Part shown: one piece after another, positions 1 to 61,682 of the stretch
Position numbering within the stretch: position 1 is the stretch's first letter
Layout of the letters: every line of letters begins with the position of its first letter
Source: Terrabacter sp. Root181
GTDB taxonomy: Bacteria > Actinomycetota > Actinomycetes > Actinomycetales > Dermatophilaceae
Direction of reading: 5' to 3'
Assembly (NCBI RefSeq): GCF_001428505.1
Contig: NZ_LMHU01000006.1
Location: forward strand, 434,712 to 498,711
DNA length: 64,000 nt
Notes under the pieces: model-generated
The model's input: the letters and a program-made list of their open reading frames with translations, nothing else
Told to the model about the DNA's origin: nothing
Databases searched by the model: none
Position numbers and translations under genes: made by a program

Positions 1-1145
1 CGCAGCAGGTGCACCGTCGTGTCGTCCTTGCCGAACGTCAGGTCGGTGCCGACCTCGTTGACGACCTGCAGGTCGCTGCCCTTGCGGGCGAACTTGGCCC
101 GCGCGTGGTCCATGACGCTGCCGTGGGCGTCGCCCGTCTCGGCGGCGAAGCTGACGATGAACGGCGAGCCCGTCCCGCGGCTCTCGCGGGCTGCGACGAG
201 GCCGCGGACGATGTCGGGGTTCTCGACGAGCTCGACCCGAAGGCCGGCGTCGGGGTCGGCGGACTTCTTGATCTTGCTCTCGCTCACGGCCGCCGGGCGG
301 AAGTCGGCCGGCGCCGCAGCCATGACGACGACGTCGGCGTCGGACGCCGCCTCCTCGACGGCACGCTGAAGCTCGAGGGTCGTCTCGACGGGCACGACGT
401 CGATGCCCTCGGGCACCGGGAGCGCGACGTTGGCGGCCACGAGGGTGACCTTCGCGCCACGGTCGGCAGCGGCGCGCGCGATGGCCACGCCCTGCTTGCC
501 GGACGAGCGGTTGCCGAGGTAGCGCACGGGGTCGAGCGGCTCGCGCGTGCCCCCGGCGGACACGACGACGCGCCGGCCCTCGAGGTCGCGCCGGGGCTCC
601 CCCGCCACGGCGGCGCCGTCACCCGACACGATCGCGAGGCACGCGGCATACAAGGCCTCGGGCTCGGGGAGGCGGCCGGCACCGGTGTCCTTGCCGGTCA
701 GGCGTCCCACCGCGGGGTCGATGACGTGGGCTCCGCGCGCGCGGAGCGTGGCGACGTTGGCCTGCGTGGCCGGGTGCTCCCACATCTCGGTGTGCATGGC
801 CGGCGCGAACGCGACCGGGCACCGAGCGGTGAGGAGGGTGTTGGTCAGCAGGTCGTCGGCGAGGCCGTGCGCGGCCTTCGCGAGGAGGTCTGCGGTGGCC
901 GGGGCGACGACCACCAGGTCGGCGGACTGGCCGATGCGCACGTGCGGGACCTCGTGGACCGACGTCCACACCTCCGTGCTGACGGGCTTGCCCGAGAGGG
1001 CCGACCACGTCGGCGCTCCCACGAAGTGGAGCGCCGCCGCGGTGGGCACGACGGTGACGTCGTGCCCGTGCTCGGTGAAGAGCCGGAGCAGCGAGCAGGC
1101 CTTGTAGGCGGCGATGCCGCCACTCACCCCGAGGACGACGCGCAT
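1..1145 (-). CDS. coaBC: Bifunctional CoaBC (PPC synthetase/decarboxylase), 3' end missing
   Basis: Cytosolic flavoprotein of coenzyme A synthesis: it joins 4'-phosphopantothenate to cysteine and decarboxylates the product to 4'-phosphopantetheine. About 381 residues are visible from the ATG at 1145; the gene runs off the left edge, so the C-terminus is missing. The N-terminal CoaC flavodoxin fold shows VVVAPATADLL near residues 80-90 and the substrate clamp PAMHTEMW near 114-121. The CoaB part opens with GGTREPLDPVRYLGNRSSGK near 193-212. It follows rpoZ, gmk and mihF on the same strand, the standard actinobacterial order. It begins 25 bases after the rpoZ stop, so it is probably co-transcribed. 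Confidence 0.97.
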   Translation of the reverse strand, partial: MRVVLGVSGGIAAYKACSLLRLFTEHGHDVTVVPTAAALHFVGAPTWSALSGKPVSTEVWTSVHEVPHVRIGQSADLVVVAPATADLLAKAAHGLADDLLTNTLLTARCPVAFAPAMHTEMWEHPATQANVATLRARGAHVIDPAVGRLTGKDTGAGRLPEPEALYAACLAIVSGDGAAVAGEPRRDLEGRRVVVSAGGTREPLDPVRYLGNRSSGKQGVAIARAAADRGAKVTLVAANVALPVPEGIDVVPVETTLELQRAVEEAASDADVVVMAAAPADFRPAAVSESKIKKSADPDAGLRVELVENPDIVRGLVAARESRGTGSPFIVSFAAETGDAHGSVMDHARAKFARKGSDLQVVNEVGTDLTFGKDDTTVHLL

Positions 1146-1170
1146 CGGCTGCTCCCGACCCGTCGGGTGC

Positions 1171-1434
1171 TCAGGCCTCGGTGGGCGTCGAGGTCAGCAG
1201 GCCCTCGTTGATCTCGCGCAGCGCGATCGACAGCGGCTTCTCGTGGACCTCGGTCTCGACGAGCGGACCGACGTAGTCGAGCAGGCCCTCCTGCAGCTGG
1301 GAGTAGTAGGCGTTGATCTGACGGGCGCGCTTGGCGGAGTAGATGACGAGCGCGTACTTCGAGTCGGCGGCGGTCAGGAGGTCGTCGATCGGCGGGTTGG
1401 TGATGCCGATGGGAGCAGCCTGGGTACCGGACAC
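1171..1434 (-). CDS. rpoZ: RNA polymerase omega subunit
   Basis: Small subunit that helps assemble and stabilise RNA polymerase by holding beta-prime. The protein has 87 residues and the omega core: [11 protein letters not shown] near the start, then [19 protein letters not shown] and [16 protein letters not shown]. This matches the actinobacterial form in length and motifs. The start is GTG; the ribosome site upstream is weak (a short GAGA). It sits between gmk (102-base gap) and coaBC (25-base gap) in the conserved mihF-gmk-rpoZ-coaBC block. Confidence 0.96.
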
Positions 1435-1535
1435 AGTGATCTCGTTTCGTTGGTTTCAGCGGGCTTGAGGTGCGTGCTGCGACGTCGACGGCGGTGCGGT
1501 CGTCTGCCGTCGGCTGGCACACATCACGTCGGGAC

Positions 1536-3021: not shown

Positions 3022-3027
3022 ACCGTA
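3022..3027 (-). promoter_or_regulatory. -10 box TACGGT, leaderless start of lipoprotein gene
   Basis: TACGGT ends 6 bases before ATG 3015, so transcription would start at or next to the ATG. The box overlaps a copy of the octamer GTATGCCG (3025-3032, read on plus). Confidence 0.4.
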
Positions 3028-3084
3028 TGCCGTGTGGTGGGCGCCGTCGCGCGAGTCCCTCGAAGCGCGCCGGTCCGAGGGGGC

Positions 3085-3540: not shown

Positions 3541-3589
3541 GCCACACGGCATACCCGGCTGGGAGTTGCCTGTGACAAACCGGGGAGCG

Positions 3590-6304: not shown

Positions 6305-6308
<4 letters not shown>
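5418..6308 (-). CDS. pyrK: Dihydroorotate dehydrogenase electron transfer subunit
   Basis: Ferredoxin reductase-like partner of PyrD that takes electrons through FAD and a 2Fe-2S cluster to NAD. In the 296 residues, RRSFSIHKV is the FAD-binding arginine motif, [16 protein letters not shown] the nucleotide-binding loop, and [16 protein letters not shown] plus a later RSC supply the four cluster cysteines (near residues 233-256). The gene overlaps carB by ATGA upstream and pyrD by ATGA downstream. Complex formation with PyrD is inferred from family and position. Confidence 0.95.
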
Positions 6309-9657
<3,349 letters not shown>

Positions 9658-9658
<1 letters not shown>

Positions 9659-10869
9659 CAGGCGTTGACCTCCGTGGTCTGGTGGGCTGTCTGTCTGGTG
9701 CTCATGAGCTCCACGAAGCGGTCGAAGAGGTAGGCGGCGTCGTGCGGGCCGGCGGCCGCCTCCGGGTGGTACTGCACGGAGTACGCCGGCCGGTCGAGGC
9801 ACTCGAGGCCCTCGACGACGTCGTCGTTGAGGCACACGTGCGACACGCGGACGCGGCCGTATGCCGTGTCGCTGTCCTCGTCGAGGGGCGCGTCGACCGC
9901 GAAGCCGTGGTTGTGGGCGGTCACCTCGACCTTGCCGGTCGTGCGGTCCATGACCGGCTGGTTGATGCCGCGGTGGCCGTACTTCAGCTTGTACGTGCCG
10001 AAGCCGAGCGCCCGACCGAGGAGCTGGTTGCCGAAGCAGATGCCGAAGAACGGGATGTCGCGGTCGAGCACCTCGCGCAGCAGCGCGACCTCGCGCTCCG
10101 CGGACGCCGGGTCACCGGGACCGTTGGAGAAGAAGACCCCGTCGGGGCCGGACTCCCCCACCGCGAGCACGTCGTCGATCGTCGCGGAGGCCGGCAGCAC
10201 GTGCACCTCGATCCCGCGCTGCGCCATGAGCGCCGGGGTCATCGCCTTGATGCCGAGGTCGACGGCGGCGACGGTGAAGCGCTTGTCGCCCACGGCCGGG
10301 ACGGCATACGGCTCGGCGGTGGTGACCTCCGCGGCGAGCGCGGCGCCCGCCATCTGCGGGCTCGTGCGGACCGCGTCGAGCAGGTCGGCCTCGGGACGGT
10401 CGGCGGCGTCACCGCTGAAGATGCCGACGCGCATGGCGCCGCGCTCGCGCAGGTGGCGCGTCAGGGCGCGGGTGTCGATGTCGCAGATGCCGACGACGCC
10501 CTGGTCGACGAGCTCGTCCTCGAGCTCGCGCGTGGCGCGCCAGCTGGACGACCGGATCGCGGGGTCGCGCACGACGTAGCCGGCGACCCAGATGCGGGTG
10601 CTCTCGTCGTCCTCGGTGTTGACGCCGGTGTTGCCGACGTGCGGCGCGGTCATGACGATGACCTGCCGGTGGTAGCTCGGGTCCGTCAGCGTCTCCTGGT
10701 AGCCGGTCATGCCGGTGGAGAAGACCGCCTCACCGACGGTCTCGCCGACCGCGCCGTAGGACGACCCACGGAAGGTGCGGCCGTCCTCGAGCACGAGGGT
10801 CGCTGCGACGCGGGCGGGCGCGGACCTCCCGTCACGGCTCGGCACGGTCAACGGTGTCTGGGTGGTCAC
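9658..10869 (-). CDS. carA: Carbamoyl-phosphate synthase small subunit
   Basis: Glutamine amidotransferase subunit that releases ammonia for CarB. In 403 residues the N-terminal CPSase_sm_chain domain ([30 protein letters not shown]) precedes a class I amidotransferase with the nucleophile in [12 protein letters not shown] near residue 278 and the His-Glu pair in QYHPEA near 367. GTG 10869 overlaps the pyrC stop by four bases (GTGA). In most actinobacterial pyr operons a small membrane protein gene sits between pyrC and carA; here they abut. Confidence 0.98.
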
Positions 10870-14992: not shown

Positions 14993-15088
14993 CGTCACAA
15001 ACCACTTTCGTATGCCGGCCGGCCCGGTCGGGTGCCTCTGGGCACGCCGGAGCCCCGGACGTTCTTTGACTTGGGGAGTTGCCGCACG

Positions 15089-19320: not shown

Positions 19321-19758
19321 TCAGACCAGGGCGCGCAGGGCCAACAGGTAGGACTGCAGGCCGAAGCCCGAGACCGTGCCGGTCGCGACCCCCGCGACGA
19401 CGCTGGTGTGCCGGAACTCCTCGCGGGCAGCCGGGTTGCTCAGGTGCACCTCGACGAGGCTGCGTCCGCTCGTGGTCACGATGGCGCAGGCGTCGCGGAC
19501 GGCATACGAGTAGTGCGTGAAGGCGCCCGGGTTGAGCACGACGTCAGCCCCCACGTCGACGGCCTCGTGCAGCCAGTCGATGAGCTCGCCCTCGTGGTTG
19601 GTCTGGCGACAGTCGGCGACGAGGCCCAGGTCGCGCGCCTCGCGCTGCACCGCGGCGTGCACGTCGTCGAGCGTGTCCGAGCCGTAGACCTCCGGCTCTC
19701 GGGTGCCGAGACGGCCCAGGTTGGGGCCCGACAGGACGAAGACCGTGGGTGCCGTCAT
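19321..19758 (-). CDS. aroQ: 3-dehydroquinate dehydratase, type II
   Basis: Third step of the shikimate pathway: dehydrates 3-dehydroquinate. It has 145 residues, as usual for the dodecameric type II enzyme. The catalytic tyrosine is Tyr25 in REPEVYG, and NPGAFTHYSYAVRDA (Asn76), HLSNP (His105) and Arg116 complete the site. The usual GPNLN reads GPNLG here, a mild deviation beside the active loop. ATG 19758 lies 7 bases after a TAGACT box that uses the aroB stop codon, so aroQ may also be transcribed alone as a leaderless mRNA. Confidence 0.96.
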   Translation of the reverse strand: MTAPTVFVLSGPNLGRLGTREPEVYGSDTLDDVHAAVQREARDLGLVADCRQTNHEGELIDWLHEAVDVGADVVLNPGAFTHYSYAVRDACAIVTTSGRSLVEVHLSNPAAREEFRHTSVVAGVATGTVSGFGLQSYLLALRALV

Positions 19759-19771: not shown

Positions 19772-20896
19772 CTGAGCGGCCGCGTCGGCGCGGCGCGACA
19801 CGAGGCCGTATGCCGCTTGGAGCAGCGCGTCGTCAGGCCCGGCCAGACGGGTGGGCTCGGCCAGACCGTCGAGCACGACGAACCGCAGCGTCGAACCGCG
19901 GGACTTCTTGTCGCGTCGCATCGCGGTCAGCAGCTCGTCCCACCGGCCCGCGGCATACGTCGTCGGCAGGCCGAGCGAGGTGAGGACCGAGCGGTGCCTG
20001 GCCACGAGCGCGTCGCCCTCGGGACCGCTCAGGTGACCGGTGAGGCGGGCGAGCTCGGCGACGTAGACCATGCCGACCCCCACCGCCTCGCCGTGCCGCC
20101 ACGAGTAGTGCTCGACCTGCTCGATGGCGTGGCCGAAGGTGTGGCCGTAGTTGAGGATCTCGCGGAGCGAGCTCTCGCGCAGGTCGGCGGCGACGACGTT
20201 GGCCTTGACCCGGACGGCGCGCTCGATGAGCTCGCGCAGGTGCGGGTTGGCGGCACTTCGGGCCCGGTCGGCGTCATCCGCGGTGGCCGACTCGACGAGG
20301 TCGAGGATGACGGGGTCGGCGATGAAGCCGCACTTGACGACCTCGGCGAGACCCGCGGCGAGGTCGGCCACGGGCAGGGTCGCGAGGACGTCCACGTCGC
20401 AGAGCACCCCGGCCGGCGGGTGGAAGGCGCCGACGAGGTTCTTGCCCTCCGGGGTGTTGATCCCGGTCTTGCCACCGAGGGCAGCGTCGACCATGCCGAG
20501 TAGCGTCGTCGGCACCTGGACGACGCGCACCCCGCGCAGCCACGACGCCGCGACGAAGCCGGCGAGGTCGGTGACCGTGCCGCCGCCGACCCCGACGACG
20601 GCATCGGTGCGGGTGAAGCCGGCGCGGCCGAGCTGCGCCCAGAGGGCCGCAGCGACCTCGGCGGTCTTGGCCGCCTCTGCGTCGGGCACCTCGGCGGCGT
20701 GGACGGCATACCCCCGACCCTCGAGTGCTGCTGTCACCCGGGACGTGAGCCCGGGGAGCGTCGGGGGGTGGACGACGAGGACGCGTTCGACGTCGGGGCC
20801 GAGGAGGTCACCGACGCGGTCGAGCACACCGGACCCGATGACGACGTCGTAGTCGCCGCCGACGGCGATCGTCGTCGGCTCGGCCGGAGCGCTCAC
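19769..20896 (-). CDS. aroB: 3-dehydroquinate synthase
   Basis: NAD- and metal-dependent cyclisation of DAHP to 3-dehydroquinate. The 375 residues include the NAD-binding GVGGGTVTDLAGFVA, the PTTLLGMVDAALGGKTGIN block, metal ligands in LNYGHTFGHAIE and HGEAVGVGM, all family signatures. GTG 20896 overlaps the aroK stop (GTGA). The stop is TAG, rare in this window. aroC-aroK-aroB-aroQ are read in that order. Confidence 0.97.
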   Translation of the reverse strand: MSAPAEPTTIAVGGDYDVVIGSGVLDRVGDLLGPDVERVLVVHPPTLPGLTSRVTAALEGRGYAVHAAEVPDAEAAKTAEVAAALWAQLGRAGFTRTDAVVGVGGGTVTDLAGFVAASWLRGVRVVQVPTTLLGMVDAALGGKTGINTPEGKNLVGAFHPPAGVLCDVDVLATLPVADLAAGLAEVVKCGFIADPVILDLVESATADDADRARSAANPHLRELIERAVRVKANVVAADLRESSLREILNYGHTFGHAIEQVEHYSWRHGEAVGVGMVYVAELARLTGHLSGPEGDALVARHRSVLTSLGLPTTYAAGRWDELLTAMRRDKKSRGSTLRFVVLDGLAEPTRLAGPDDALLQAAYGLVSRRADAAAQ

Positions 20897-28977: not shown

Positions 28978-29027
28978 GTATGCCGCTGGGCCGGCTCCCC
29001 CGTGCGGGAACCGGCCCAGCGGCATAC
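28978..29027 (-). terminator. Terminator hairpin after the oligopeptide ABC operon
   Basis: Seventeen-base perfect arms GTATGCCGCTGGGCCGG (28978-28994) and its complement (29011-29027), with a further TCCC/GGGA pairing inside. It lies 25 bases past the oppF stop. Both arm ends are copies of the dispersed octamer GTATGCCG. No T-tract. Confidence 0.8.
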
Positions 29028-40729: not shown

Positions 40730-42439
40730 TCAGCCGACGGCATCCGTGACGAACGTGCCGTTGACAGCGCGGAGCCGGTGGTCCCAGGACGTCCCGGGCC
40801 GGCCGAGGACCTTCTCGCTGAGCGTGGCCCGGGCACTGGTGTCGGCGGTCGCGTGCCGCTGGTCCCGCGGCACCCCGTAGATCCAGCTCGCCTGCCCGTC
40901 GTAGGACGAGGTCTCCGACCGGCTCGACAGGCGCGCCGCGCCGCGCGTCAGCGAGTCGTCGCGCGACCACGTGATGGCGATGTCGCCCGTGACGTCGTAC
41001 GCGCCGGCGATGTCGCCGCGCGGATGGAAGCCGAGGACACCGTCCTTGTCCCAGCGGTGTCCGGTGCGTTCGACGGTCGGGGTCCCGTTCGCGAGCCCGG
41101 TCGCCACCACCTGGGTGTCGGTCCACGACGCCGTGAGCGTGTCGTCGGCCTCGTCGTCGGTCCACACGTGCCGCGACGTGTTCTCGAGCCGGCGCGTGAC
41201 CGTGGTCGTCACCGGCCCGCGCGAGGTGGACAGCGTTCCCGTGACGCGGAGCTGACGTCGCGCGTCGAGATCGACGTGGCCCGCCTGGTCCCCCGCCCCC
41301 GACACGGCGCTCTCCACGACGGGGTCGCCTGCGTATGCCGTCCCGGTCGTCCCTGCGACGACGCTGCGGCCCGCGTCGCGCCAGATCCGGAAACGTGGCG
41401 AGATCGTCCAGCCGCCCTGACCGGACGGCAAACCCACGACCGAGAGGCGCACGTCGTGCGGTCTGCCGTCGTTGAGGCGGCCCAGGAACGGCGTCAGGTC
41501 GTAGCCGAGCGGCGGGATGTCGAAGGCCTTCGGTGACGGGATGGTGTACCAGAGGAACGGGTTGCTCCAGCCTCCGGTGTAGACGACGGGGTACGGCGCC
41601 GCGATCCCGGCGAGCTGCCCGTCGATGCGCACGTCGACCTCGCGGTAGGGCAGGCCGTCCGGACACGAGTAGCCCGTGCTCGCGGGGGCGCTCGTGTCCC
41701 AGAACTCCTCGCAGCCACCGCCGGAACCGGTCGCGAAGACGTCCGCGAGCAACCGGGTCGAGTTGCGGGGCACGGTCAGCGAGCCGACGAGGTCGGTGCC
41801 GTCGCGGGAGGTGTCGGAGAGCGGAAGGACGGCGTCGGACGTCCGGGCCGCCGGGGTGCCGCGTCCCGTGGTGTAGAAGTCGAGCTCGACCGTGACGTGG
41901 ATGACTCCGGTGTACGTGGAGTCGACGACGTTGCCGATGAAGGCCTGCACCTGCTGCGGGTCCGCGAGCAGCGGCGCGAGGTCGGTGACGTCCTTCTCGA
42001 CGTGCCAACGGATCCCGTCGACGCTCGGCTCGGGCGTCGAGAGCGTCAGCATGCGCACGCCACCGACGTCGACGTAGCCGATGCGGTCGAACTGCCGCCC
42101 GGCCACCGAACCCTCGAGCCGCATGACGACCGTGGACCACGGACCTGCGCACCCGACGGGCGGGGTGTAGGCCCGCGTGTGGACGTCGAAGTCGTCGAAC
42201 GCGTCGTCGACGACCCGCACGGTGCAGTGACGGGTGGGTGGCACGGCGACGGGTGGCTCCGGGGTGCGCGGGTCGTCCCAGTCGGTGCCGAACTCCGGTG
42301 GCGGGGCAGCGGCGGGCGCGGTCGAAGGGACGGCGGCGGGACCGGTCGAGGGCAGGCCAGAGGCCGCGCTCGCGCCCGTCAGGGCGAGGACCGTGCCCAG
42401 GAGCACCGCTGTGACGGGACGGCGACGTGGTGTGCGCAT
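40730..42439 (-). CDS. Secreted PNGase A-like peptide-N-glycanase
   Basis: Homologue of plant peptide-N4-(N-acetyl-beta-glucosaminyl)asparagine amidase A, which removes N-glycans from glycoproteins. The 569 residues start with a Sec signal (TPRRRPVTAVLLGTVLAL..) and a Pro/Ala linker to about 55. The family block follows: FDRIGYVDVGGVRMLTLSTP, IRWHVEKDVTDLAPLLADP and NVVDSTYTGVIHVTVELDFY. Activity is inferred from similarity. ATG 42439 has TACGGT 7 bases upstream. It stands alone between aspS and the AraC gene. Confidence 0.85.
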   Translation of the reverse strand: MRTPRRRPVTAVLLGTVLALTGASAASGLPSTGPAAVPSTAPAAAPPPEFGTDWDDPRTPEPPVAVPPTRHCTVRVVDDAFDDFDVHTRAYTPPVGCAGPWSTVVMRLEGSVAGRQFDRIGYVDVGGVRMLTLSTPEPSVDGIRWHVEKDVTDLAPLLADPQQVQAFIGNVVDSTYTGVIHVTVELDFYTTGRGTPAARTSDAVLPLSDTSRDGTDLVGSLTVPRNSTRLLADVFATGSGGGCEEFWDTSAPASTGYSCPDGLPYREVDVRIDGQLAGIAAPYPVVYTGGWSNPFLWYTIPSPKAFDIPPLGYDLTPFLGRLNDGRPHDVRLSVVGLPSGQGGWTISPRFRIWRDAGRSVVAGTTGTAYAGDPVVESAVSGAGDQAGHVDLDARRQLRVTGTLSTSRGPVTTTVTRRLENTSRHVWTDDEADDTLTASWTDTQVVATGLANGTPTVERTGHRWDKDGVLGFHPRGDIAGAYDVTGDIAITWSRDDSLTRGAARLSSRSETSSYDGQASWIYGVPRDQRHATADTSARATLSEKVLGRPGTSWDHRLRAVNGTFVTDAVG

Positions 42440-42452: not shown

Positions 42453-42509
42453 GGACCGCTCGGGTCAAGGATGGGCAAAGCGCGTGGCAGGTGACGGCAT
42501 ACGTCAAGA

Positions 42510-44532: not shown

Positions 44533-45627
44533 GTGCAGCACTCCCGCAACCGAGACCTCGACGGCGTCCGAGGTCTCGCCATCCTCCTCGTCGTGGCGGC
44601 CCACTCCGGGCTGCCGGTGCGCTGGGGCGGCCTGTCGGGCGTGACGCTCTTCTTCGTGCTGTCCGGCTACCTCATCACGAGCCTGCTCGTCCGCGAGTGG
44701 GACCGCTGGGGGTCGGTCAGCCTGTGGCGCTTCTGGGGACGACGGGCCCTGCGCCTGCTGCCCGCGCTCGCGCTCCTGATCGTGCTCGCTCCCCTGCTGC
44801 TCTGGGCGACGGGCGACGACCGGCTCTCGACCTACCCCACCGCGGCCCTCGCCTCGCTCTTCTACGTCGGCAACTGGGTGCGCATCGGGGGCACCGACCT
44901 GGGGGTGCTCAACCACCTGTGGTCGCTCTCGGTCGAGGAGCAGTTCTACGTCGTGTGGCCGGCCGTCTTCATCGCCCTCATGACGTGGCTGCGCAGCCGC
45001 GCCCTCGCGGTCGTGCTCAGCCTGGCGGCGCTCGCGACCTTCTACTCCGTGTGGACGAGGGGCAGCGCGATCCGCCTCGACATCTCGACCGAGACGAACG
45101 CGTTCGCCCTCCTGCTCGGGGTGGCACTGGCGTTCGCGATCGCCGCGGTGCGCGCGCGTGGCTGGGAGCTGCCGTCGACGAGCCCCCTCGTGCCCTTCGT
45201 CGTCCTGGTCGCCGTGTCGGCCTTCCCCGGGCACGGGCTCGAGGTCGACCACCCGCTCTTCCGGCCGCTCGGTGCCGTCTACGCCGTGCTCGGCGTGTGG
45301 CTCGTGTATGCCGCCGTGTCGGGTCACTCGCGCGTCGTGGGCTCCCGCGTCATGGTCTTCTTCGGGACGATCAGCTACGCGCTCTACCTGTGGCACCAGA
45401 CGTTCATCAACAGCAGGCTGCTCGGCGAGCACACGACCCCACGCAACCTCGTGCTCATCGCGGCCGCGGTCCTCGTCTCGTGGCTCTCATGGGTGCTCGT
45501 CGAGCGACCCGTGGGCCGGCTGCGCGGTCGGCTGCGTCTCGACCAGCCGTCGCGTCGGCAGCAGGCCTTCGCCGAGACCCGCGACCGGGCCGCGCGGGAC
45601 CCGCGTCCGGCCGCCCCGACGGCGTAG
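44533..45627 (+). CDS. Acyltransferase 3 family membrane protein (OatA-like)
   Basis: Integral membrane O-acyltransferase that moves acyl groups onto extracytoplasmic glycans or lipids. The 364 residues form about ten helices. [20 protein letters not shown] holds the conserved histidine, [10 protein letters not shown] follows, then [14 protein letters not shown] with the conserved Glu, and YALYLWHQ near the end. Unlike full OatA it lacks the SGNH esterase domain, so it may need a partner. Target unknown. GTG 44533 has no ribosome site but a -10 box 7 bases away. Confidence 0.92.
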
Positions 45628-45672: not shown

Positions 45673-47199
45673 CTACGCCGTCGTCCGAGCCCGGTCTCCC
45701 GCGGCTGCGGGCTCCGGGTCCGGCCCCCTGTCCGGTTCTGCTTCCGGTTCTGCGTGCTCGTCGACGTTGCGGGAGTCGGTGAGGCTGAGCGCCCCCCAGG
45801 TGGTCACGACTCCCACGAGGACGGCCAGGACGGCATACGTCACCCGTTCACCGTGGAAGAAGGACGAGACGAGCTCGGGGCTCCAGGTGCCTGCCGGCAG
45901 GACCGTCGTCACGAGGACGGCCACGAGGGTGCCGACGACCGCGGTGCCGACGCTCGTCCCGACCTCCTGGGCCGTGTCGTTGAGAGCGGTGCCGATCGAC
46001 GTCCGGTTGGCGGGCATCGCCTCGACGAGCGCCACCGCGCAGATCGTCATGACCGTGCGCAGGCCTACCGTCATGACGACCATGGAGGCAGCGATGGCGG
46101 GGTAGCCCCGGTCGACGCCCCACGCGAGGCCCAGGAGCGAGCCCGCGACGAGGGCCGCACCGACGAGGCACGCGATCCGGTGGCCGAAGCGCCGGGCGAG
46201 CCATTCCGAGAGCGGAGTGGCGAGGATCATCGTCATGATGAGCGGCAGGTTGGCGAGGCCGGCGCGCACCGGGCTCCAGCCGTAGGCGTACTGGAAGTGC
46301 AGGATGAGGCCGAACATGACCCCGGCCATCGCGATCGAGGTCCCGGCCTGTGCCACGGCGGCGCCGCGCACCGTGCCCCGCGAGAAGAGCGAGAGGTCGA
46401 GCATCGGTGAGGCGGAACGTCGCTCGTGCCGGACGAACGCGAAGAGGGCGAGGCCGGCACCGAGGACCGCCGCGACCGTGGTGGCCGACACCCAGCCGTG
46501 CTCGACGCCGCTCGTCAGGGCGTAGCAGCCGAGGCCGATGGCCGCGATGCTCAGCAGGGCGCCGGCCAGGTCGAGCCGGTCGTCGGTGAGGTCCTCGCGG
46601 CGGTCGGCGGGCACCCCGAGCCGGACTCCGACCCACGCGACCAGGGCGATGGGCGCGTTGACGAGGAGCAGCCACTCCCACCGGACGTGGGCGAGCGCCG
46701 TGCCGCCGAGGAGGGGGCCGAGGACGAAGCCGGACATCCCGACGATGATCATCACGGTCATGGCCCGCATGCGCAGGGCCTGGTCGTCGAAGAGCCGGAA
46801 GACGAGCGAGTTGGTGATCGGAGCCATCGCCGCCGCCGCGATCCCGAGGGCCGCTCGGAGCGCGATGAGCTCGCCGGTCGTGGACACTGCGGCCACTCCG
46901 AGGCTGATGACGCCGAAGCCGGCGAGACCCCAGAGGAGCACCCGGCGTCGGCCGAGCCGGTCGGCGGCCGAGCCCGCGGTCAGCAGCAGGCCGCCGAACG
47001 TCAGCGAGTAGGCACCGGTGACCCACTGCAGCGCCGTCGTGGCGCCACCGAGGTCGCGGCCGATGGTGGGCAACGCGATGGTCAGGAGGGTGTTGTCCAC
47101 CATCTCGACGAAGAAGGCGAGGCAGAGGGCGAGCATGGGCACCGAGGCCGCGCGGAGCGAGGCATAGGTCCGAGACGGGCCGGGGATCGTCGTGGTCAT
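45673..47199 (-). CDS. MFS multidrug exporter, 14-helix (DHA2/EmrB type)
   Basis: Proton-coupled drug exporter in the membrane. The 508 residues predict 14 helices; motif A reads GSAADRLGRRRVLLWGLAG and motif C region VGMSGFVLGPLLGG. The C-terminus is a long Glu/Pro-rich cytosolic tail (EHAEPEAEPDRGPDPEP). ATG 47199 has AGGAGGT upstream. It diverges from a TetR gene across three identical-type operators, so it is almost surely repressed by that protein until an inducing compound binds. Confidence 0.94.
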   Translation of the reverse strand: MTTTIPGPSRTYASLRAASVPMLALCLAFFVEMVDNTLLTIALPTIGRDLGGATTALQWVTGAYSLTFGGLLLTAGSAADRLGRRRVLLWGLAGFGVISLGVAAVSTTGELIALRAALGIAAAAMAPITNSLVFRLFDDQALRMRAMTVMIIVGMSGFVLGPLLGGTALAHVRWEWLLLVNAPIALVAWVGVRLGVPADRREDLTDDRLDLAGALLSIAAIGLGCYALTSGVEHGWVSATTVAAVLGAGLALFAFVRHERRSASPMLDLSLFSRGTVRGAAVAQAGTSIAMAGVMFGLILHFQYAYGWSPVRAGLANLPLIMTMILATPLSEWLARRFGHRIACLVGAALVAGSLLGLAWGVDRGYPAIAASMVVMTVGLRTVMTICAVALVEAMPANRTSIGTALNDTAQEVGTSVGTAVVGTLVAVLVTTVLPAGTWSPELVSSFFHGERVTYAVLAVLVGVVTTWGALSLTDSRNVDEHAEPEAEPDRGPDPEPAAAGDRARTTA

Positions 47200-48063: not shown

Positions 48064-48978
48064 TCAGACCGGTCGGAGGTCCCGGCCGGCCTCGGTGGCG
48101 AGCGCGTCGACCGCCGCGGCGAGCGCGGGCCGGTCGGTCATGGTGCGCCGCCAGACGAGGCTGACCGTCCGTTCGGACACCGGGTCGACGATGGGGACGG
48201 CGACGACCCGACCCGGGAGCTGGCCTCGGCCGAGGCGTGGCACGAGGGCGATGGCCTCCCCCTCGGCGACGAGGGCGATGTGGGTGGCGAACTCGAGGGC
48301 GACATGGGCGATCCGGGGAGCGCGACCGACGTCGGCATACATCTTCTGCAGCCACTGGTGGCAGATGGAGCCGGGCGCGACGCTGGCCCAGGCCTCGTCG
48401 AGCACGTCACCGACCCCGAGGCTGGCACGGGCGCCGAGCGGGTGGTCCTCGTGAACGAGGACGTCGGCGCGGTCCCGTCCGAGGTCTCGCACCTCGAGGT
48501 GGTCCGGGATGGCGAGCGGCAGTGGCTCCCAGTTGTGCACGAGGGCGAGGTCGTGCGTGCCGGCGGCCACCGCATCCACCGCGTCCCAGGGGTCGATCTC
48601 GTCGGGCCGGAGGACGACGTCGGGTGCGGTCGCGCGAAGGCGGCCGATGGCGCCCACGACGATCCCGCGGTAGGCCGTGGCGAAGGTCGCGAGGCGCACC
48701 GTGCCGACCGTCTCACCGCTCGCCCCGTGGAGGCGCGACTCGAGCCGCTCCATGTCGGCCAGCAGGGCCCGGGCCGCGTCCGAGAGGGTCCGGCCCGCCT
48801 CGGTGAGCAGCACGCCGCGACCCTGCCGCTCGAGCAGCTGCACCCCGGTCTGGGTCTCGAGGCGCTTGATCTGCTGGGACACCGCGCTCGGGGTGTAGTC
48901 GAGGGCGGACGCGGCGGCCCCGACGGAGCCGTGGGCCTCGACAGCCACGAGCGAGCGCAGGGCGACCGGATCGATCAT
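48064..48978 (-). CDS. LysR family transcriptional regulator
   Basis: 304 residues with an N-terminal winged helix (ALRSLVAVEAHGSVGAAASALDY, then SAVSQQIKRLETQTGVQLLER) and a C-terminal LysR_substrate domain. It is divergent from an EamA transporter, whose gene it probably controls. ATG 48978 lies within a 19-base palindrome that also holds its -10 box TAGCAT, so it likely blocks its own expression. Confidence 0.92.
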   Translation of the reverse strand: MIDPVALRSLVAVEAHGSVGAAASALDYTPSAVSQQIKRLETQTGVQLLERQGRGVLLTEAGRTLSDAARALLADMERLESRLHGASGETVGTVRLATFATAYRGIVVGAIGRLRATAPDVVLRPDEIDPWDAVDAVAAGTHDLALVHNWEPLPLAIPDHLEVRDLGRDRADVLVHEDHPLGARASLGVGDVLDEAWASVAPGSICHQWLQKMYADVGRAPRIAHVALEFATHIALVAEGEAIALVPRLGRGQLPGRVVAVPIVDPVSERTVSLVWRRTMTDRPALAAAVDALATEAGRDLRPV

Positions 48979-50053: not shown

Positions 50054-50383
50054 GGACTCCGACCACCGGGCGACGAACTCGACGACACCGTCCTCGTCGT
50101 CGGTCCCGCCGCGCTCGCTCCGCAGCACCGTCAGGCCGGTCCAGCGCGTCGCCGCGTCGAGGTCGACCCGCTCGGGCCGGGTCCGTGGGTGCCAGCTGCG
50201 CACGAGGTACGCCTCGTCCCCCACGGCGAACGCCGTGTAGCGCGAGCGCATGAGCTCCTCCGCGGTGGCGGCCGGACGGTCGCCCGCGTGGAGCGGACCG
50301 CAGCAGGCGGCATACGCCTGCTGCTGCGGGCCGCCACCGCACGGGCACCGCGCCGAGGCAGCCGGCCCGAAGGCCCCGCTCAC
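49958..50383 (-). CDS. ychJ: YchJ family SEC-C motif protein (UPF0225)
   Basis: 141 residues. The N-terminal zinc-binding SEC-C motif CPCGGGPQQQAYAACCGPLH is followed by the NTF2-like body (MRSRYTAFAVGDEAYLVRSW) and the typical end GRWLYVDGEH. Role not well defined; the motif recalls the SecA C-terminal zinc finger. GTG 50383 overlaps the Nudix stop (GTGA). Its last 96 bases overlap the convergent EamA gene. Confidence 0.9.
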   Translation of the reverse strand: MSGAFGPAASARCPCGGGPQQQAYAACCGPLHAGDRPAATAEELMRSRYTAFAVGDEAYLVRSWHPRTRPERVDLDAATRWTGLTVLRSERGGTDDEDGVVEFVARWSESSAGAGRRGELHEVSRFARRAGRWLYVDGEHG

Positions 50384-52851: not shown

Positions 52852-53997
52852 CGTCACTCCGCGGGGGTCCGTGACGTAGCGTTCCACCCACCGGCGCGTC
52901 TCGTCGTCGGGAGTGGGCCATCCGGCCGCCAGCACGCGGGCGGCGGCACCGTCGCGGAGCCTGGCCGCCGGGTCGCTGAGCAGGTGGTCCACTCGGTCCG
53001 CCACTGCGGCCGGGTCACCTACGGCGACAAGCGAACCCGCGTCCCCCACGAGGTCGGGTAGGCCGCCGGTCCTAGTCACCACGACGGGCAGCCCCGCTGC
53101 CATGGCTTCCTGGACAACGAGCGCCCGAGCTTCCCAGCGACTGGTGAGGACGAAGACGTCGGCGGCGCGGAACCACTCGGGCACATCGGTGCGGGCCCCC
53201 ACGAACCGGACCTGCGCCGCGGCGACGTCGCCCTCCCCCTGCGGTATGCCGTCCGCCTCCTCCTCGAGGCGGGCGCGGAGCCGCGCGTCGCCGTCGCCGA
53301 CGACGACCCACGTCGCGGCGGCGTGCGACAGTCGCGCGGCCTGCACGAGGGTCGGGAGGTCCTTCTGGGGTGCGATGCGCGACACCGTGAGCACGACGGG
53401 ACGATCGGTGGCGATGCCCGCCGCGGCAAGGAAGGCGGCCCGCTCGGTGGCGTCGAGGGCAGGTCGACCCCGGAGGTCGGCGACCGCGGCGGACGGCACG
53501 TGGGCCAGCTCGGTGCATCGGGCCCCCAGTCGATCGGCGAGCTCGACGAGGTCGGCGCTCGCACCTGTCACGAGGTCGGCCCGGCGCAGGGACCAGCTGA
53601 GCAGACGGCGGGCGACCGATGCCCTGGCGCGTGCGCTCGCGGACGGACCGGCCGGTGGGAGGTCGTTGTGGAGGGAGACCACGAGCCGCGGGCGTGGCCG
53701 GGCCCGGCTGACGGCCACGGCAGCGACAACGGCAGCCTGGTGCCCGTGTGCGTGCACGACGTCGACGGTGCACGCGAGGCGCATGATGCGGTGCCAGTCC
53801 ACGAGACCGCGAGGAGCGCGCACCCCGCTGTGGACCGGCCACAGCCGGAGGGCGTCGGTCCAGCCGAAGGTGCGCGCCGTCGAGTCGGCCGTCACGACCT
53901 CGACCTCATGACCCTGCTCGCGCAGGCCGGTCACGAGGGCGTCGACGTGCGCGCCGACTCCCCCGGCCGCCCGGCCGAGCACCATGAGCACCTTCAT
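52849..53997 (-). CDS. Glycosyltransferase, GT-B fold (CAZy GT4-like)
   Basis: 382 residues, cytosolic or membrane-edge sugar transferase. The acceptor half starts [19 protein letters not shown]; the donor half has [17 protein letters not shown] and the family E-x7-E region [20 protein letters not shown]. Donor and acceptor are unknown. ATG overlaps the MurJ-like stop (ATGA). It follows the MraY/WecA-like and flippase genes, suggesting it extends a lipid-linked sugar; that is inference. Confidence 0.9.
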
Positions 53998-55784
53998 CGC
54001 GTCTCCGAGGGGCCGGTGGCGTCGGACGTGCGGGCCGGGTCCACGACGCTCGGCGAACCGACGCTCGGCGAACCGGCGGTCGAGGAAGCGGGTCGTCGCC
54101 GACGCAGGCGGGTGAGCACCGACCGGTCTACGAGCAGGACGACGACCACGAGGGCCGCCGTGGCGGCCAGCGCGACGGCCACGGCCTGGACGGCGGCGGC
54201 CAGGAGTGCATCGGGGGTCCACAGACCACCGAGCCACCACCCGAGGACTGCCGCCGCCGCAGCTCCGGCGATCCCGGCGGCGACCGGGCGCACCGGGACG
54301 GCCAGCGCCGCGCCGCCCCAGCTCCGCGCGACGAGGACCGCGAGCGCGACCGCCCCGGCCACGAGCCCCACGCTCGTGCCGAGGGTCAGGGCGCGCACGG
54401 TGGCGTCAGGTCCGGCGTCGCCCTCGAGAGCCACGAGGGGCACGAAGGTCGTCGTGAGCCAGGCCACGGCGACCACCGCGCCGGCGACCCGCGCGCGGCC
54501 GCGGACGTACGACGCCCGGGTCAGCAGTCCGATCGCGCAGAGCCCGACGATGCCGGGAGCCACGAGCGCCAGGGCGTCGGGGATGGCCGACAGGGCCTCG
54601 GCGCCCGTCCGGTCCGCTCGTCCCGCGTCGAGCAGTGCGAAGAAGGCGCCGACCGGTCGGGCGACGGCCACGAGCAGCCCCCCGGCCAGCAGGCCGGCGA
54701 GAAGAGTCGCGAGCCAGGTGCGACGCAGCACGTCCACGGCCGCCGGGCCCGGCGCAGAGCCCGGCGCAGGGCCCGGCGCGGGAGTCACGGTCCCGGCCCG
54801 CGGTGTCGCGTCCCGGCCGGCCTCCGCACTGCCCGCCAGCGTCGGGAACGCCGCTGTTGCGAGCGGGACGGCGAGGACGGCATACGGCAGCAGCGAGACA
54901 GCCTGGACGTAGGTGTAGACGTTGAGCGTCCCGGGGCCGCCCCGGTCGTTGGCGAGACGGATGAAGACGAGGGTCGCCAGCTGCTGTCCGGCGACGGCGA
55001 GCAGCCCCGCCACGGCGAGTCGCCGGACCCTGGCGGCGACGCCGTGGGGGAAGCGGGTCGTCAGGCGGAGGTCGATGCCGGCGCGACGCACCGGGACGAG
55101 GAGCGGCAGGGACAGGGCCACGACCCCGAGGGTCGTGCCGACGGCGAGCACCGTGGTCGCCGATGTCGGCACCTGCGGGATCACCGCCGCCGGGTCGGCG
55201 GCGAGGGCGGCGTACGCGACGTAGGTCGCGATCACGACAAGGCTCGACATGAGCGGGGCCAGGGCCGCCGCGACGAAGCGGTGGTGCGACTGGAGCAGCC
55301 CGCCGAGCACGATGCCGACGCCGTAGAGCGGGATCTGGATCGCGAAGACCCGCAGCAGGTCGGTGCCGAGACCCACCGCACCGGGACAGGACCCTCCGGC
55401 TCCGAGCAGAGCGCGCGCGATCGGCTCGGCGGCGAGGGCGACGAGCAGCCCGAGCGGCACGAGGACGACGAGCACCCACGTCAGCAGGGCGGAGGCCGTG
55501 TGGTCGGCCTCGGCCTTGTCCCCGCGGGCCAGCGCGCCCGCGACGAGGGGCACGGCGACTGCGGCGAGCACTCCCCCGGCCGCGATCTCGAAGAGCACGT
55601 TCGGCACGGCGTTGACCGACTGGTAGACGCTGCCGACACACGTCGCGCCGACCGAGTGCGAGAAGACGAACCATCGGCCGAAACCGACGACACGAGCGAC
55701 GAGCGTGATGACCGCGATGGTCCCGGCCGCGGCGAACAGCCCACGGCGAGAGGCATGCCCGTTCACGGGGGCCCGGTCACTCAT
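53994..55784 (-). CDS. MurJ/MviN-like lipid flippase
   Basis: Membrane protein of the MOP exporter superfamily, 596 residues, about 14 helices. The conserved family start is GTIAVITLVARVVGFGRW, with NAVPNVLFEIAAGGVLAAVAVP soon after. A Pro/Gly/Ala linker (PAPGPAPGSAPGPAA) sits mid-protein, and the tail has a GSPSV pair from a 15-base duplication. It may flip lipid II or another polyprenyl-linked sugar. Actinobacteria usually have another murJ near the chromosome end, so this may be a specialised copy. ATG 55784 overlaps the previous stop. Confidence 0.9.
   Translation of the reverse strand: MSDRAPVNGHASRRGLFAAAGTIAVITLVARVVGFGRWFVFSHSVGATCVGSVYQSVNAVPNVLFEIAAGGVLAAVAVPLVAGALARGDKAEADHTASALLTWVLVVLVPLGLLVALAAEPIARALLGAGGSCPGAVGLGTDLLRVFAIQIPLYGVGIVLGGLLQSHHRFVAAALAPLMSSLVVIATYVAYAALAADPAAVIPQVPTSATTVLAVGTTLGVVALSLPLLVPVRRAGIDLRLTTRFPHGVAARVRRLAVAGLLAVAGQQLATLVFIRLANDRGGPGTLNVYTYVQAVSLLPYAVLAVPLATAAFPTLAGSAEAGRDATPRAGTVTPAPGPAPGSAPGPAAVDVLRRTWLATLLAGLLAGGLLVAVARPVGAFFALLDAGRADRTGAEALSAIPDALALVAPGIVGLCAIGLLTRASYVRGRARVAGAVVAVAWLTTTFVPLVALEGDAGPDATVRALTLGTSVGLVAGAVALAVLVARSWGGAALAVPVRPVAAGIAGAAAAAVLGWWLGGLWTPDALLAAAVQAVAVALAATAALVVVVLLVDRSVLTRLRRRRPASSTAGSPSVGSPSVVDPARTSDATGPSETR
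54046..54075. repeat. 2 x 15-base tandem duplication in the MurJ-like gene
   Basis: Two identical copies of ACGCTCGGCGAACCG encode GSPSV twice in the cytosolic tail. Confidence 0.85.
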
Positions 55785-58925: not shown

Positions 58926-60719
58926 TCAGGCGCGCGCGCCGCTGCGGGCGACCGGACGCGCACCCACCCGGGCGCCGCTGGTCTGCTCGAGCAGGTCGCC
59001 GGCGTGGGCCAGACCGGCCTCGGAGTCGGGGTCACCGCCCATCATCCGCGAGAGCTCCCGCAGCCGGGCGTCGCCGTCGACCACGGAGACGCTGCTCGAG
59101 GTGATGCGGCCGTCGTCGGACTTGTGCACGACGAGGTGCCGGTCGGCGAACGCCGCCACCTGCGCGAGGTGGGTGACGACGATGACCTGGGCGTGCTCGG
59201 CCAGTGCCGCCAGACGTGCACCCACGTCGAGGGCTGCCCGACCGCCGACGCCGGCATCGACCTCGTCGAAGACGAACGTGGGTGGTCCGCTCGCGGCCTC
59301 GCCCGAGGCGCTGCGCGAGCCGACGACCTCGAGGGCGAGCATGACGCGCGAGAGCTCACCGCCGGAGGCGGCACGGGACACGCTGCGCGGCGTCGCACCG
59401 GGGTTGGCGGCGAGCAGGATCTCGACGTCGTCGATGCCGTGTCGGGCCAGCCGCACGCGGTCACCGTCGGGCAGCACGACGCCCTCGGGGTCGGTGCGAC
59501 GACGCAGCTCGACCTGGACGACGGCCTTGCCCATCGCCAGGTGCGAGAGCTCCTCGGAGACGCGGGTGCCGAAGTCGTCACCGGCGGCGCGGCGAGCCTC
59601 CGACAGCGCGACGGCGGCCTCGACGACGGACGCCTCGAGCTCGGCCACCTCGGCGCCGAGCCGCTCGACCCGGTCGTCGGCCGTCACGAGCTCGTCGAGG
59701 CGAGCAGCCCCGCGACCCGACCACTCGAGCACCTCGTCGACGGTCTCGCCGTACTTGCGGGTGAGGACACCGAGCGCCGCCCGCCGCTCCTGCACGTAGC
59801 CCAGGCGCTGCGGGTCGAGGTCGACGTCCTCGAGGTATGACGTGAGGTCGGCCGAGAGGTCCGTGACGAGCGTGCCCACCTCGTGCAGGCGCTCGTCGAG
59901 GCCGGCGAGGGCCTGGTCGTGGGCCGTGGCGGGCCCGAGCGCACCCCGGGCCGACCCGATCAGGTCACGCACGTTGGGGGCCGGCTCGGCGGCATACTCG
60001 TCACCGCTGAGGTCAGCGAGGGCCTGGGCTGCAGCCAGACGAAGCGTGTCGGCGTGGGCGAGGCGCTCGTCCTCGGCGCGCAGCGCCACGTCCTCGCCGG
60101 GCTGGGGGTCGACGGCCTCGATCTCCTCGAGGGAGGCGGTGAGCGAGTCGATCTCACGGGCGCGCTCACGTGCTTCCGACACGAGGCGCTCGTGCTCACG
60201 GGCGGACTCGCGCCAGCGGTCGTAGAGCTCGCCGACGCGGTCGCGGAGCGCCGTGAGGTCAGGTCCGCCGAAGTCGTCGAGGACCACCCGGTGCGCGTCG
60301 CCCTGCTTGAGGCGCCACTGGTCGGCCTGGCCGTGGACGGCCACGAGCATCTGCCCGAGCTCGGCGAGCACGGCGACCGGGGCGGTGCGCCCGCCGACGT
60401 GGGCGCGCGACCGTCCGGCCGCGGCGATGGTGCGGGCGATGACGAGCTCGCCGTCCTCGTGGTCGGCGCCCGCCTCGTCGGCCCGGACGAGGGCCGGATG
60501 GTCCAGGGGCAGCTGCACGACGCCCTCGACGAGCGCCGAGGAGGAGCCGGTGCGCACGAGCCCGGAGTCGGCGCGCTCACCGAGCAACAGGCCGAGACCG
60601 GAGACGACCATGGTCTTGCCGGCGCCGGTCTCACCGGTGAGGACGTTGAGCCCGGGGCTCAGGTCGAGGACGGCGTCGTCGATGACGCCGACACCCCGGA
60701 TCCTCATCTGGCTGAACAC
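58926..60719 (-). CDS. recN: DNA repair ATPase RecN
   Basis: SMC-like ATPase for double-strand break repair. The 597 residues have Walker A GETGAGKT near 30-37, a central coiled coil with a short bend, signature ASGGELSRVML near 451 and Walker B FVFDEVDAGVGG near 481. GTG 60719 is chosen over ATG 60707 because AAGGTGG lies 6 bases upstream; the same bases form TAAGGT, a -10 box using the nadK stop. No LexA-like box was recognised. Confidence 0.96.
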   Translation of the reverse strand: MFSQMRIRGVGVIDDAVLDLSPGLNVLTGETGAGKTMVVSGLGLLLGERADSGLVRTGSSSALVEGVVQLPLDHPALVRADEAGADHEDGELVIARTIAAAGRSRAHVGGRTAPVAVLAELGQMLVAVHGQADQWRLKQGDAHRVVLDDFGGPDLTALRDRVGELYDRWRESAREHERLVSEARERAREIDSLTASLEEIEAVDPQPGEDVALRAEDERLAHADTLRLAAAQALADLSGDEYAAEPAPNVRDLIGSARGALGPATAHDQALAGLDERLHEVGTLVTDLSADLTSYLEDVDLDPQRLGYVQERRAALGVLTRKYGETVDEVLEWSGRGAARLDELVTADDRVERLGAEVAELEASVVEAAVALSEARRAAGDDFGTRVSEELSHLAMGKAVVQVELRRRTDPEGVVLPDGDRVRLARHGIDDVEILLAANPGATPRSVSRAASGGELSRVMLALEVVGSRSASGEAASGPPTFVFDEVDAGVGGRAALDVGARLAALAEHAQVIVVTHLAQVAAFADRHLVVHKSDDGRITSSSVSVVDGDARLRELSRMMGGDPDSEAGLAHAGDLLEQTSGARVGARPVARSGARA

Positions 60720-60725
60720 GGGTCC

Positions 60726-60731
60726 ACCTTA
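60726..60731 (-). promoter_or_regulatory. -10 box TAAGGT overlapping the nadK stop
   Basis: The nadK TAA stop starts TAAGGT; six bases later comes the recN GTG. The same bases read as a Shine-Dalgarno (AAGGTGG), so either role is possible. Confidence 0.35.
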
Positions 60732-61682
60732 GGGCCGGGCACCCGCACCGCCGTCGACGTCGTCCACGGGTGTCGTGGTGTCGCCGTTGCCGTTGCCACG
60801 CCACCCGGCGACCGACAGGTTGAACTTGGCGACGAGGCGGTCGGTGAACGGCGCGCTCGTCAGACGGGCGAGGCGAAGCGGACGCAACCCGCGGCGTACC
60901 TCGATGCGCGCGCCCGGCGGGAGGTCGACATGGCGCCGGCCGTCGCACCACATGACGCCCGCCCCCTCGGTCGCGGCCTTGATCTCGACGGCGAGGTGGG
61001 TGTCGGGACCCAGCACGAGCGGGCGGGCGAAGAGTGCGTGCGCTGCGCTGGGGACGAGGAGCATCGCCTCGACCTGCGGCCACACGACCGGCCCACCGGC
61101 CGAGAAGGCGTATGCCGTCGAGCCCGTCGGCGTGGAGACGATGACGCCGTCACAGCCCCAGCTCGACAGCGGGCGACCGTCGACCTCGACGGTGACCTCG
61201 AGCATCCGCTCGCGTGCCGCCTTCTCGACGCTGACCTCGTTGAGGGCCCAGCTGCTGGCGATGAGGTCACCGTGCAGCTTGGCGTCGACGTGGAGCGTCA
61301 TGCGCTCCTCGACGGCGTAGTCGTTGCTCGCGATGTGCTCGACCGTGGCGTCGAGGTCGTCGCGCTCGGCCTCCGCGAGGAAGCCGACGTGGCCCAGGTT
61401 GACGCCGAGCAGGGGGACGTCGACGCTGCGGGCGAACTCGGCGCCGCGCAGGATCGTGCCGTCGCCGCCGAGCACCACGACGAGGTCGCACCCCTCGGCG
61501 ACCTGCTCCTCGGCGGACGCGATGTGCACGCGTGCGCTGTCCTTGAGGTCGAGGGCCTCCGCCTCGTCGGCCTGGAGGGACACGTCGATGCCGAGGTGCG
61601 TGAGGCGCTCGACGACGCCCTTGGCGACCGTCAGCGCCTCGGGGCGCCTCGGGTGGGCCACGAGCAGGATCCGGCGCGTCAC
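60729..61682 (-). CDS. nadK: NAD kinase
   Basis: Phosphorylates NAD to NADP. The 317 residues have VVVLGGDGTILRGAEFA near 68-84, LNEVSVEK, and the NAD-binding GCDGVIVSTPTGSTAYAFSA. The C-terminus is a low-complexity tail (GNGNGDTTTPVDDVDGG). GTG 61682 overlaps the tlyA stop. The stop is TAA, rare here. tlyA-nadK-recN is conserved in actinobacteria. Confidence 0.97.
   Translation of the reverse strand: MTRRILLVAHPRRPEALTVAKGVVERLTHLGIDVSLQADEAEALDLKDSARVHIASAEEQVAEGCDLVVVLGGDGTILRGAEFARSVDVPLLGVNLGHVGFLAEAERDDLDATVEHIASNDYAVEERMTLHVDAKLHGDLIASSWALNEVSVEKAARERMLEVTVEVDGRPLSSWGCDGVIVSTPTGSTAYAFSAGGPVVWPQVEAMLLVPSAAHALFARPLVLGPDTHLAVEIKAATEGAGVMWCDGRRHVDLPPGARIEVRRGLRPLRLARLTSAPFTDRLVAKFNLSVAGWRGNGNGDTTTPVDDVDGGAGARP

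Follow-up and report, generated by a model that had tools for sequence, protein, structure and literature searches.

Neisseriaceae and Pasteurellaceae are named in a 2025 paper as the only families known for DNA uptake words (PMC12616744). The DNA uptake sequence (DUS) of Neisseriaceae occurs in dialects that follow the core phylogeny, and inverted pairs of DUS are associated with terminators (PMC3630211); genomic islands in these bacteria lack copies (PMC7371117). The uptake signal sequence (USS) of Pasteurellaceae is found family-wide at about one copy per kb, with no orientation bias, a preference for non-coding DNA, and close pairs in opposite orientation (PMC1626085). The subject of this report is an octamer, CGGCATAC (GTATGCCG on the opposite strand), in a 64-kb stretch of the soil bacterium Terrabacter sp. 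Root181 (assembly GCF_001428505.1, contig NZ_LMHU01000006.1, positions 434,712 to 498,711), referred to as the window. By its likeness to the known systems the word probably works as an uptake sequence. The probability that it is the DUS of a naturally transformable actinobacterial lineage, with dialects of its own, is put at about two in three.

Two further systems are close enough to matter. HIP1 (highly iterated palindrome, GCGATCGC) of cyanobacteria is a dense octamer which is low in some relatives and has alternate words in exceptional strains (PMC4390886). Transformation of Micrococcus luteus is Flp/Tad-dependent, and comEC and both tad clusters are required for it; the term 'uptake sequence' is not in that paper, and no such word is described in its accessible parts (PMC4322843).

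The window contains 29 exact copies of CGGCATAC on the two strands together, in the number and at the places first claimed; dinucleotide shuffles contain 0.66 on average and none of 100 reaches 29. A genome-wide count, which the first-pass annotation had proposed as a check, gives 2,231 copies (1,096 forward and 1,135 reverse) in the 4.94 Mb and 12 contigs of the genome, or one per 2.2 kb. The reversed word, used as a control, has 250 (126 + 124). In a 464-kb set made up of the window and 400 kb of contig C1 there are 227 copies, where second- and third-order Markov models predict 9.2 and 11.6.

None of the 24 single-mismatch neighbours of CGGCATAC exceeds 2.2 times expectation in the 464 kb. 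The highest counts over expectation belong to CGGCATCC (97 vs 45-49) and CGGCGTAC (58 vs 27-40), both of which are words of relatives; several neighbours are at zero where 1-6 are expected, and none clearly stands out. Flank preference is weak (A 56% or G 25% directly before the word, G 64% directly after). Over the whole genome there are 651 copies of CGGCGTAC (control 220) and 989 of CGGCATCC (control 468); these excesses are modest and are treated as background.

Genes were called with a simple in-house caller, which may have missed some open reading frames. Twelve window copies are read as TAT-GCC and seven as GCA-TAC; two lie in other frames and eight outside called genes. The same mixture of frames and gaps had been reported from the first reading, with about 15 TAT-GCC cases; TAT-GCC is the commonest frame, but only 12 were counted, perhaps due to frames missed by the caller. 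TAT and GCA are otherwise rare, as had also been seen. The called genes of the window hold 21 TAT against 324 TAC codons, and 12 of the 21 are inside CGGCATAC; GCA makes up 138 of 2,650 alanine codons, seven of them inside the word. When synonymous codons are shuffled, the 21 coding copies in the window compare with a mean of 1.57 (standard deviation 1.28, maximum 8, 500 shuffles). The 464-kb set has 158 coding copies, compared with 9.6 +/- 3.0 (maximum 17) in 100 shuffles across all genes and 13.8 +/- 3.5 (maximum 23) in shuffles within genes. Tyr-Ala and Ala-Tyr account for 141 of the 158 (95 TAT-GCC and 46 GCA-TAC), and 95 of the 194 TAT codons in the set fall inside the word. A coding explanation is thus rejected, and the proposal that the word is under selection as DNA is supported.

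The word is denser between genes (0.78 per kb) than within them (0.41 per kb); a larger set of 544 kb gives 0.68 and 0.42. Convergent gaps have 1.30 copies per kb, divergent gaps 0.96 and tandem gaps 0.69. The two orientations are balanced, with 98 and 100 copies over 400 kb and 26/29, 22/19, 27/33 and 23/19 in successive 100-kb blocks. Orientation totals in the 108 genomes with at least 100 copies per Mb are also without skew (largest |z| 2.29). The strand skew that was suggested as a check is therefore seen neither in the blocks nor in the genome totals.

Distances between copies are close to a Poisson pattern, apart from slightly too many at 1-4 kb and slightly too many pairs less than 100 bp apart. 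Among 13 pairs of neighbours within 70 bp, ten are inverted, eight of these in the order GTATGCCG...CGGCATAC; five of the ten are intergenic stems of 15-19 bp. The stem in the window (copies at 28978 and 29020) is separated by 24 bp from the stop of 29052-30104(-), an ABC-transporter gene, and a 66-nt stretch containing it folds at -54.4 kcal/mol (z -7.0). These copies had been described as the two arms of a terminator. The hairpin exists; it can be called terminator-like only, because it has no T run.

Copies are missing from DNA of low GC content. Among 108 bins of 5 kb, the five below 64% GC have no copy at all, and those above 70% GC average 2.4-3.0. The word is itself 5/8 G or C, so it is poorer in GC than the genome, yet it is absent from the low-GC bins. 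The largest gap in 400 kb, C1:312149-340561, is 28.4 kb long, has 62% GC (genome 71%) and contains no copy. It encodes DpdA, B, C, D, F, G and H (7-deazaguanine DNA modification) and an ISL3 transposase; we take it to be an acquired island, the one island that was examined.

Conservation of sites between relatives, another check put forward at the outset, also favours the word. Against nine word-bearing relatives 67 of 95 aligned copies are identical, where 42.2 would be predicted from 8-mers of matching codon phase. The relatives have ancestors in common, so that the rows are not independent; the 4-kb stretch L101 is left out of the count. The excess comes from six more distant relatives, in which 50 of 63 copies are kept (background 25.2). 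Two word-poor relatives, Humibacillus sp. DSM 29435 and Phycicoccus sonneratiae, keep one of 14 (2.5 predicted). The copy at 19500, in a short gene adjoining aroB, is identical also in Humibacillus sp. DSM 29435, the sampled stretch of which is otherwise rich in CGGCATCC. Conversion of an old dialect into a new one in place is uncommon among the few sites that align: one of seven aligned CGGCATCC sites of genome G178 is CGGCATAC in G000.

All nine Terrabacter genomes carry CGGCATAC. A protein of the window, MltG, is 93-94% identical to its matches in Terrabacter sp. Ter38 and Root85, in agreement with this genus; Terrabacter belongs to Intrasporangiaceae, the genera of which GTDB places under Dermatophilaceae. 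In the family (186 genomes, 53 genera) density is bimodal: 108 genomes have at least 100 copies per Mb (median 452, highest 1,356), 13 have 40-100 and 65 have fewer than 40. The comparison set from the rest of the order comprises 229 genomes in 19 families, and all of them stay below 100 per Mb; the maximum there, judged by eye, is about 80 per Mb (G395, control 61).

Local k-mer scans of word-poor genera (labelled g, single genomes G) proposed other words, four of which were confirmed by whole-genome counts. CGGCGTAC is found in g35 (2,111, 4,185 and 3,903 copies in three genomes), g3 (2,366, 2,618 and 785 in three genomes), g7 (2,216), g5 (2,529 and 1,125 in two of four genomes), g6 (1,359) and G092 (1,463). 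CGGCATCC is found in g9 (3,816 and 3,838), g51 (3,949) and two g15 genomes (4,480 and 3,619), and 17 copies lie in 21 kb of Humibacillus sp. DSM 29435. CCGCATAC has 511 to 1,204 copies in all four g13 genomes. CCCCCTTCG has 797 to 1,939 in all 15 tested g27 genomes and all three of g36, and 11 to 80 in the remaining 145 of the 163 genomes tested. Two words have local counts only: GGTCTACG in G016 (31 in 80 kb) and CGCCGTAC in G092 (54 in 100 kb). CGGCGTAC, CGGCATCC and CCGCATAC are single-base variants of CGGCATAC; CCCCCTTCG is a quite different word. With hindsight only, CGGCATAC, CGGCGTAC, CGGCATCC, CCGCATAC, CGCCGTAC and CCCCCTTC can all be written as the pattern CNNCNTNC.

About 145 of the 186 family genomes carry at least one of the five words counted genome-wide. 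This figure is approximate, as positives for CGGCGTAC, CGGCATCC, CCGCATAC and CCCCCTTCG were picked by eye. G012 (785) and G152 (865) were taken as positive for CGGCGTAC; G006 (870, 3.0 times control) and the g47 genomes (about 4-5.6 times control, only 448-656 copies) were left negative, as were G162 and G167 for CGGCATCC (1,210 and 1,336). Counts cover 163 genomes for CCCCCTTCG, with G074 of g27 outside the set, and 166 for CCGCATAC. The reversed control is biased for CCGCATAC, in that its reverse, CATACGCC, overlaps CGGCATAC followed by GCC; absolute counts are used for this word. Local scans of 40-140 kb found no word in g2, g11, g16, g28, g38, g47, g53 or G019 of g5. The top scan words of g32, g10 and g12 proved to be within-gene repeats or a composition effect and were dropped.

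Some genomes have two words. In g15, G044 carries 2,195 copies of CGGCATCC and 1,217 of CGGCATAC, and G045 carries 2,099 and 1,189. In g44, G152 has 625 copies of CGGCATAC and 865 of CGGCGTAC, and G155 has 836 and 1,011. This is as expected of a word switch in progress. In three CGGCATAC-rich genomes of g42 (G118, G119 and G120) the reversed control outnumbers CGGCGTAC by a factor of 2.3 to 4.8, which looks like replacement or avoidance of the sister word. In G092 (L032-L036) a palindrome, GCCGTACGGC, is enriched about tenfold alongside CGCCGTAC (nine sites in 100 kb); it may be another dialect or belong to some other class of words.

Two of the other words share the layout of CGGCATAC. All close pairs (less than 60 bp) are inverted for CCCCCTTCG in g27 (5/5) and g36 (2/2) and for CGGCATCC in g51 (6/6). 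Intergenic and coding densities per kb are 1.16 vs 0.28 and 1.22 vs 0.45 for CCCCCTTCG in the same two genera, and 3.31 vs 0.70 for CGGCATCC. Word use also clusters on a tree of ComEC (42 genomes, one gene, midpoint root, eight word classes). The classes need 14 changes, compared with 24.2 when shuffled, and none of 200 shuffles is as low. CCCCCTTCG forms a single supported group nested among CGGCATAC genomes; CGGCGTAC marks one deep group and recurs in G092 and in G021; and the CGGCATCC genome G178 nests beside Terrabacter and Humibacillus.

Table 1. Copies of CGGCATAC in the window and the hairpin formed by two of them
Feature	Position	Strand	Context	Remark
copy	644..651	+	outside called genes	
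copy	3025..3032	-	outside called genes	
copy	3547..3554	+	outside called genes	
copy	8144..8151	+	gene 6305-9658(-)	frame CGT-ATG-CCG
copy	9859..9866	-	gene 9658-10794(-)	GCA-TAC
copy	10302..10309	+	gene 9658-10794(-)	TAT-GCC
copy	15010..15017	-	outside called genes	identical in 5/6 relatives aligned there
copy	19500..19507	+	gene 19321-19758(-)	TAT-GCC; identical in 10/10 aligned relatives
copy	19808..19815	-	aroB	GCA-TAC
copy	19951..19958	+	aroB	TAT-GCC
copy	20704..20711	+	aroB	TAT-GCC
copy	21453..21460	-	aroC	GCA-TAC
copy	22337..22344	+	aroC	TAT-GCC
copy	22884..22891	+	gene 22744-23457(-)	TAT-GCC
copy	23116..23123	-	gene 22744-23457(-)	GCA-TAC
copy, left arm of inverted pair	28978..28985	-	intergenic hairpin	
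copy, right arm of inverted pair	29020..29027	+	intergenic hairpin	
hairpin from two inverted copies	28978..29027	-	intergenic	17 bp without mismatch inward from the word's outer end
copy	35703..35710	-	gene 35418-36818(-)	GCA-TAC
copy	40354..40361	+	gene 40253-40705(-)	TAT-GCC
copy	41333..41340	-	gene 40730-42406(-)	GCA-TAC
copy	42495..42502	+	outside called genes	
copy	45306..45313	-	gene 44533-45627(+)	TAT-GCC
copy	45831..45838	+	gene 45673-47199(-)	TAT-GCC
copy	48333..48340	+	LysR-type regulator gene 48064-48978(-)	TAT-GCC
copy	50308..50315	+	outside called genes	
copy	53244..53251	-	gene 52849-53997(-)	frame GAC-GGC-ATA-CCG
copy	54878..54885	+	gene 53994-55784(-)	TAT-GCC
copy	59990..59997	+	gene 58926-60719(-)	TAT-GCC
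copy	61110..61117	-	gene 60729-61682(-)	GCA-TAC

A DNA uptake tag was among four candidate roles in the first-pass annotation. It is favoured over the others because there is no strand skew, inverted copies form intergenic hairpins, an island lacks the word, and dialects extend through the family. Like the DUS with its eight dialects, these words are short, exact and non-palindromic, number in the thousands, differ by a few bases between dialects that follow phylogeny (here that of one gene), form inverted pairs, and are missing from acquired DNA (here one island). They are shorter, at 8-9 nt compared with 10-12 nt for DUS. Type IVa pili and the ComP receptor belong to Neisseriaceae, which are Gram-negative diderms; the present family is actinobacterial, has Tad pili and shows PilT-like ATPases in only a few genomes. 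With the USS, CGGCATAC shares the balance of orientation, the non-coding preference, the close inverted pairs and word types that differ by subclade (PMC1626085). Its density is about half that of the USS, and it has a weak flank preference where the USS has extended AT-rich segments. Competence genes are a further feature in common with both systems, although not a specific one.

The genome has the genes that such a system would use. As in M. luteus (PMC4322843), comEA, comEC and two tad clusters are present. comEA and comEC are adjacent. The first tad cluster (C9:332-336 kb) encodes TadZ/Ssd, TadA, TadB, TadC, a DUF4244 pilin and TadE; the second (C9:364-372 kb) encodes a Flp-like pilin, CpaB, TadA, a VWA-TadB fusion and TadC, and its TadZ- and TadG-like genes are named purely on their sequence. 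In a Tad cluster on C9 (L109, 10263-12245(-)) a TadB-like protein has an N-terminal von Willebrand A domain joined to a T2SSF domain. ComEA lies beside ComEC in all 42 genomes of a set chosen for having ComEC. In one of these, G030 of g12, comEA is apparently split into two open frames, with SLBB apart from HHH; no word was found in this genus.

We infer an uptake preference, a reader and a drive. A reader on the cell surface, linked to the Tad/Flp pilus and to ComEA/ComEC, would preferentially bind DNA that carries the word, and kin DNA so taken up would recombine into the chromosome. Uptake and fixation would therefore favour alleles that carry the word. Exact copies of the 8-mer CGGCATAC would thus build up in either orientation, to about one per 2 kb. 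If the specificity of the reader drifts, the word would drift with it; this could give rise to the genus dialects CGGCATAC, CGGCGTAC, CGGCATCC and CCGCATAC and, once, to the unrelated CCCCCTTCG.

Several observations weigh against an uptake role. The words do not all behave alike: CGGCGTAC (94 copies in 140 kb) and CGCCGTAC (54 copies in 100 kb) lack close pairs altogether, although chance would give 3.3 and 1.5, and show little or no intergenic excess in the same stretches. These exceptions speak against uniform behaviour of the words. In the three closest relatives 17 of 32 copies are kept against a background of 17.0, and so at no more than the background rate. Genera with and without a word cannot be told apart by their competence genes, because ComEC (180 of 186 family genomes) and the DUF4244 gene of the tad cluster (161 of 166) are nearly universal and occur in word-free genera too; their presence was rejected as a discriminating trait. 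Among Actinobacteria this combination of genes is common (PMC4322843). No reader was found when SLBB and HHH residues of ComEA, the DUF4244 pilin and TadE were compared by eye; none of these tracks the word. A type IVa minor pilin, the known type of receptor, is unlikely because a PilT-type ATPase is above cut-off in only one of 150 genomes (G094); the type IVa pilus was likewise rejected as a discriminating trait. Type IVa PilT/PilB-like ATPases stand out only in G094, in G182 (a split match) and in G058 (a weaker match) among these 150. Transformation in these genera is not reported among the literature matches listed.

The strongest competitor is a word like HIP1, which a DNA methyltransferase would create and maintain together with methylation-directed mismatch repair; the word would then be an enzyme site with no role in uptake. 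HIP1 resembles the words described here in its density as an octamer, its scarcity in some relatives and its alternate words (PMC4390886), and an exact 8-mer with little excess of near matches suits an enzyme site. However, HIP1 is a palindrome tied to methyltransferases, and none of CGGCATAC, CGGCGTAC, CGGCATCC, CCGCATAC and CCCCCTTCG is palindromic. Such an origin does not predict intergenic hairpins from inverted pairs or an intergenic excess, and we know of no inverted hairpin habit in HIP1. A repair bias should also deplete a particular precursor word, but no neighbour is clearly singled out. This explanation is unlikely, though it deserves to be kept in mind. Confidence in an uptake sequence is set no higher, and in the HIP1-like alternative no lower, because the near-match and competence-gene evidence is not very specific.

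A recombination bias without selectivity in uptake, such as gene conversion favouring the word after any transfer of DNA, would explain the accumulation of copies, the turnover of dialects and an acquired island without copies. It needs a sequence-specific conversion enzyme that has repeatedly changed its specificity; we know of no example, and consider this improbable. A mark for recombination or segregation, either a Chi-like site for RecBCD, AddAB or AdnAB or a guide for FtsK like KOPS (FtsK orienting polar sequences), is very improbable. Sites of this type are directional and show an orientation skew on each replichore. Chi words are likewise short and over-represented, and Chi is named as one class in PMC4390886. 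The near balance of orientation in CGGCATAC, over 400 kb and block by block, disfavours both roles; inverted hairpin pairs are not expected of such a mark, and related clades use different words. An artefact of codon, codon-pair or composition bias would suit the Tyr-Ala and Ala-Tyr home of most coding copies, but can be dismissed on the synonymous-codon shuffles (a single-codon, not a codon-pair, null), the higher intergenic density, the low densities throughout the other families of the order, and the lack of CGGCATAC in some same-genus relatives such as G016, G092 and G122.

An uptake sequence with dialects is thus the reading preferred here. The four words CGGCATAC, GTATGCCG, CGGCGTAC and CGAAGGGGG, searched as whole words in the accessible open-access literature, gave one match, a Ralstonia paper on multiple-locus variable-number tandem repeat analysis. 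No uptake word in Actinobacteria appears in the titles or abstract beginnings of the matches listed from the open-access literature, which leaves aside subscription papers and preprints. On balance, the family would seem to represent a third independent evolution of sequence-marked natural transformation, and the first in Gram-positive (monoderm) bacteria. Its words would be clade-specific, 8-9 bases long, and read by a Tad-pilus-based uptake machine via a putative receptor; the word would have been swapped several times, once for an unrelated one.

If this is true, the 53 sampled genera, with at least five words and several switches, would provide an independent system in which to test the origin, spread and change of uptake words. 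A comparison of sister species that differ in their word would offer a route to the reader. For a large group of environmental bacteria, natural competence and the choice of partners for gene exchange would then be predicted from sequence alone.

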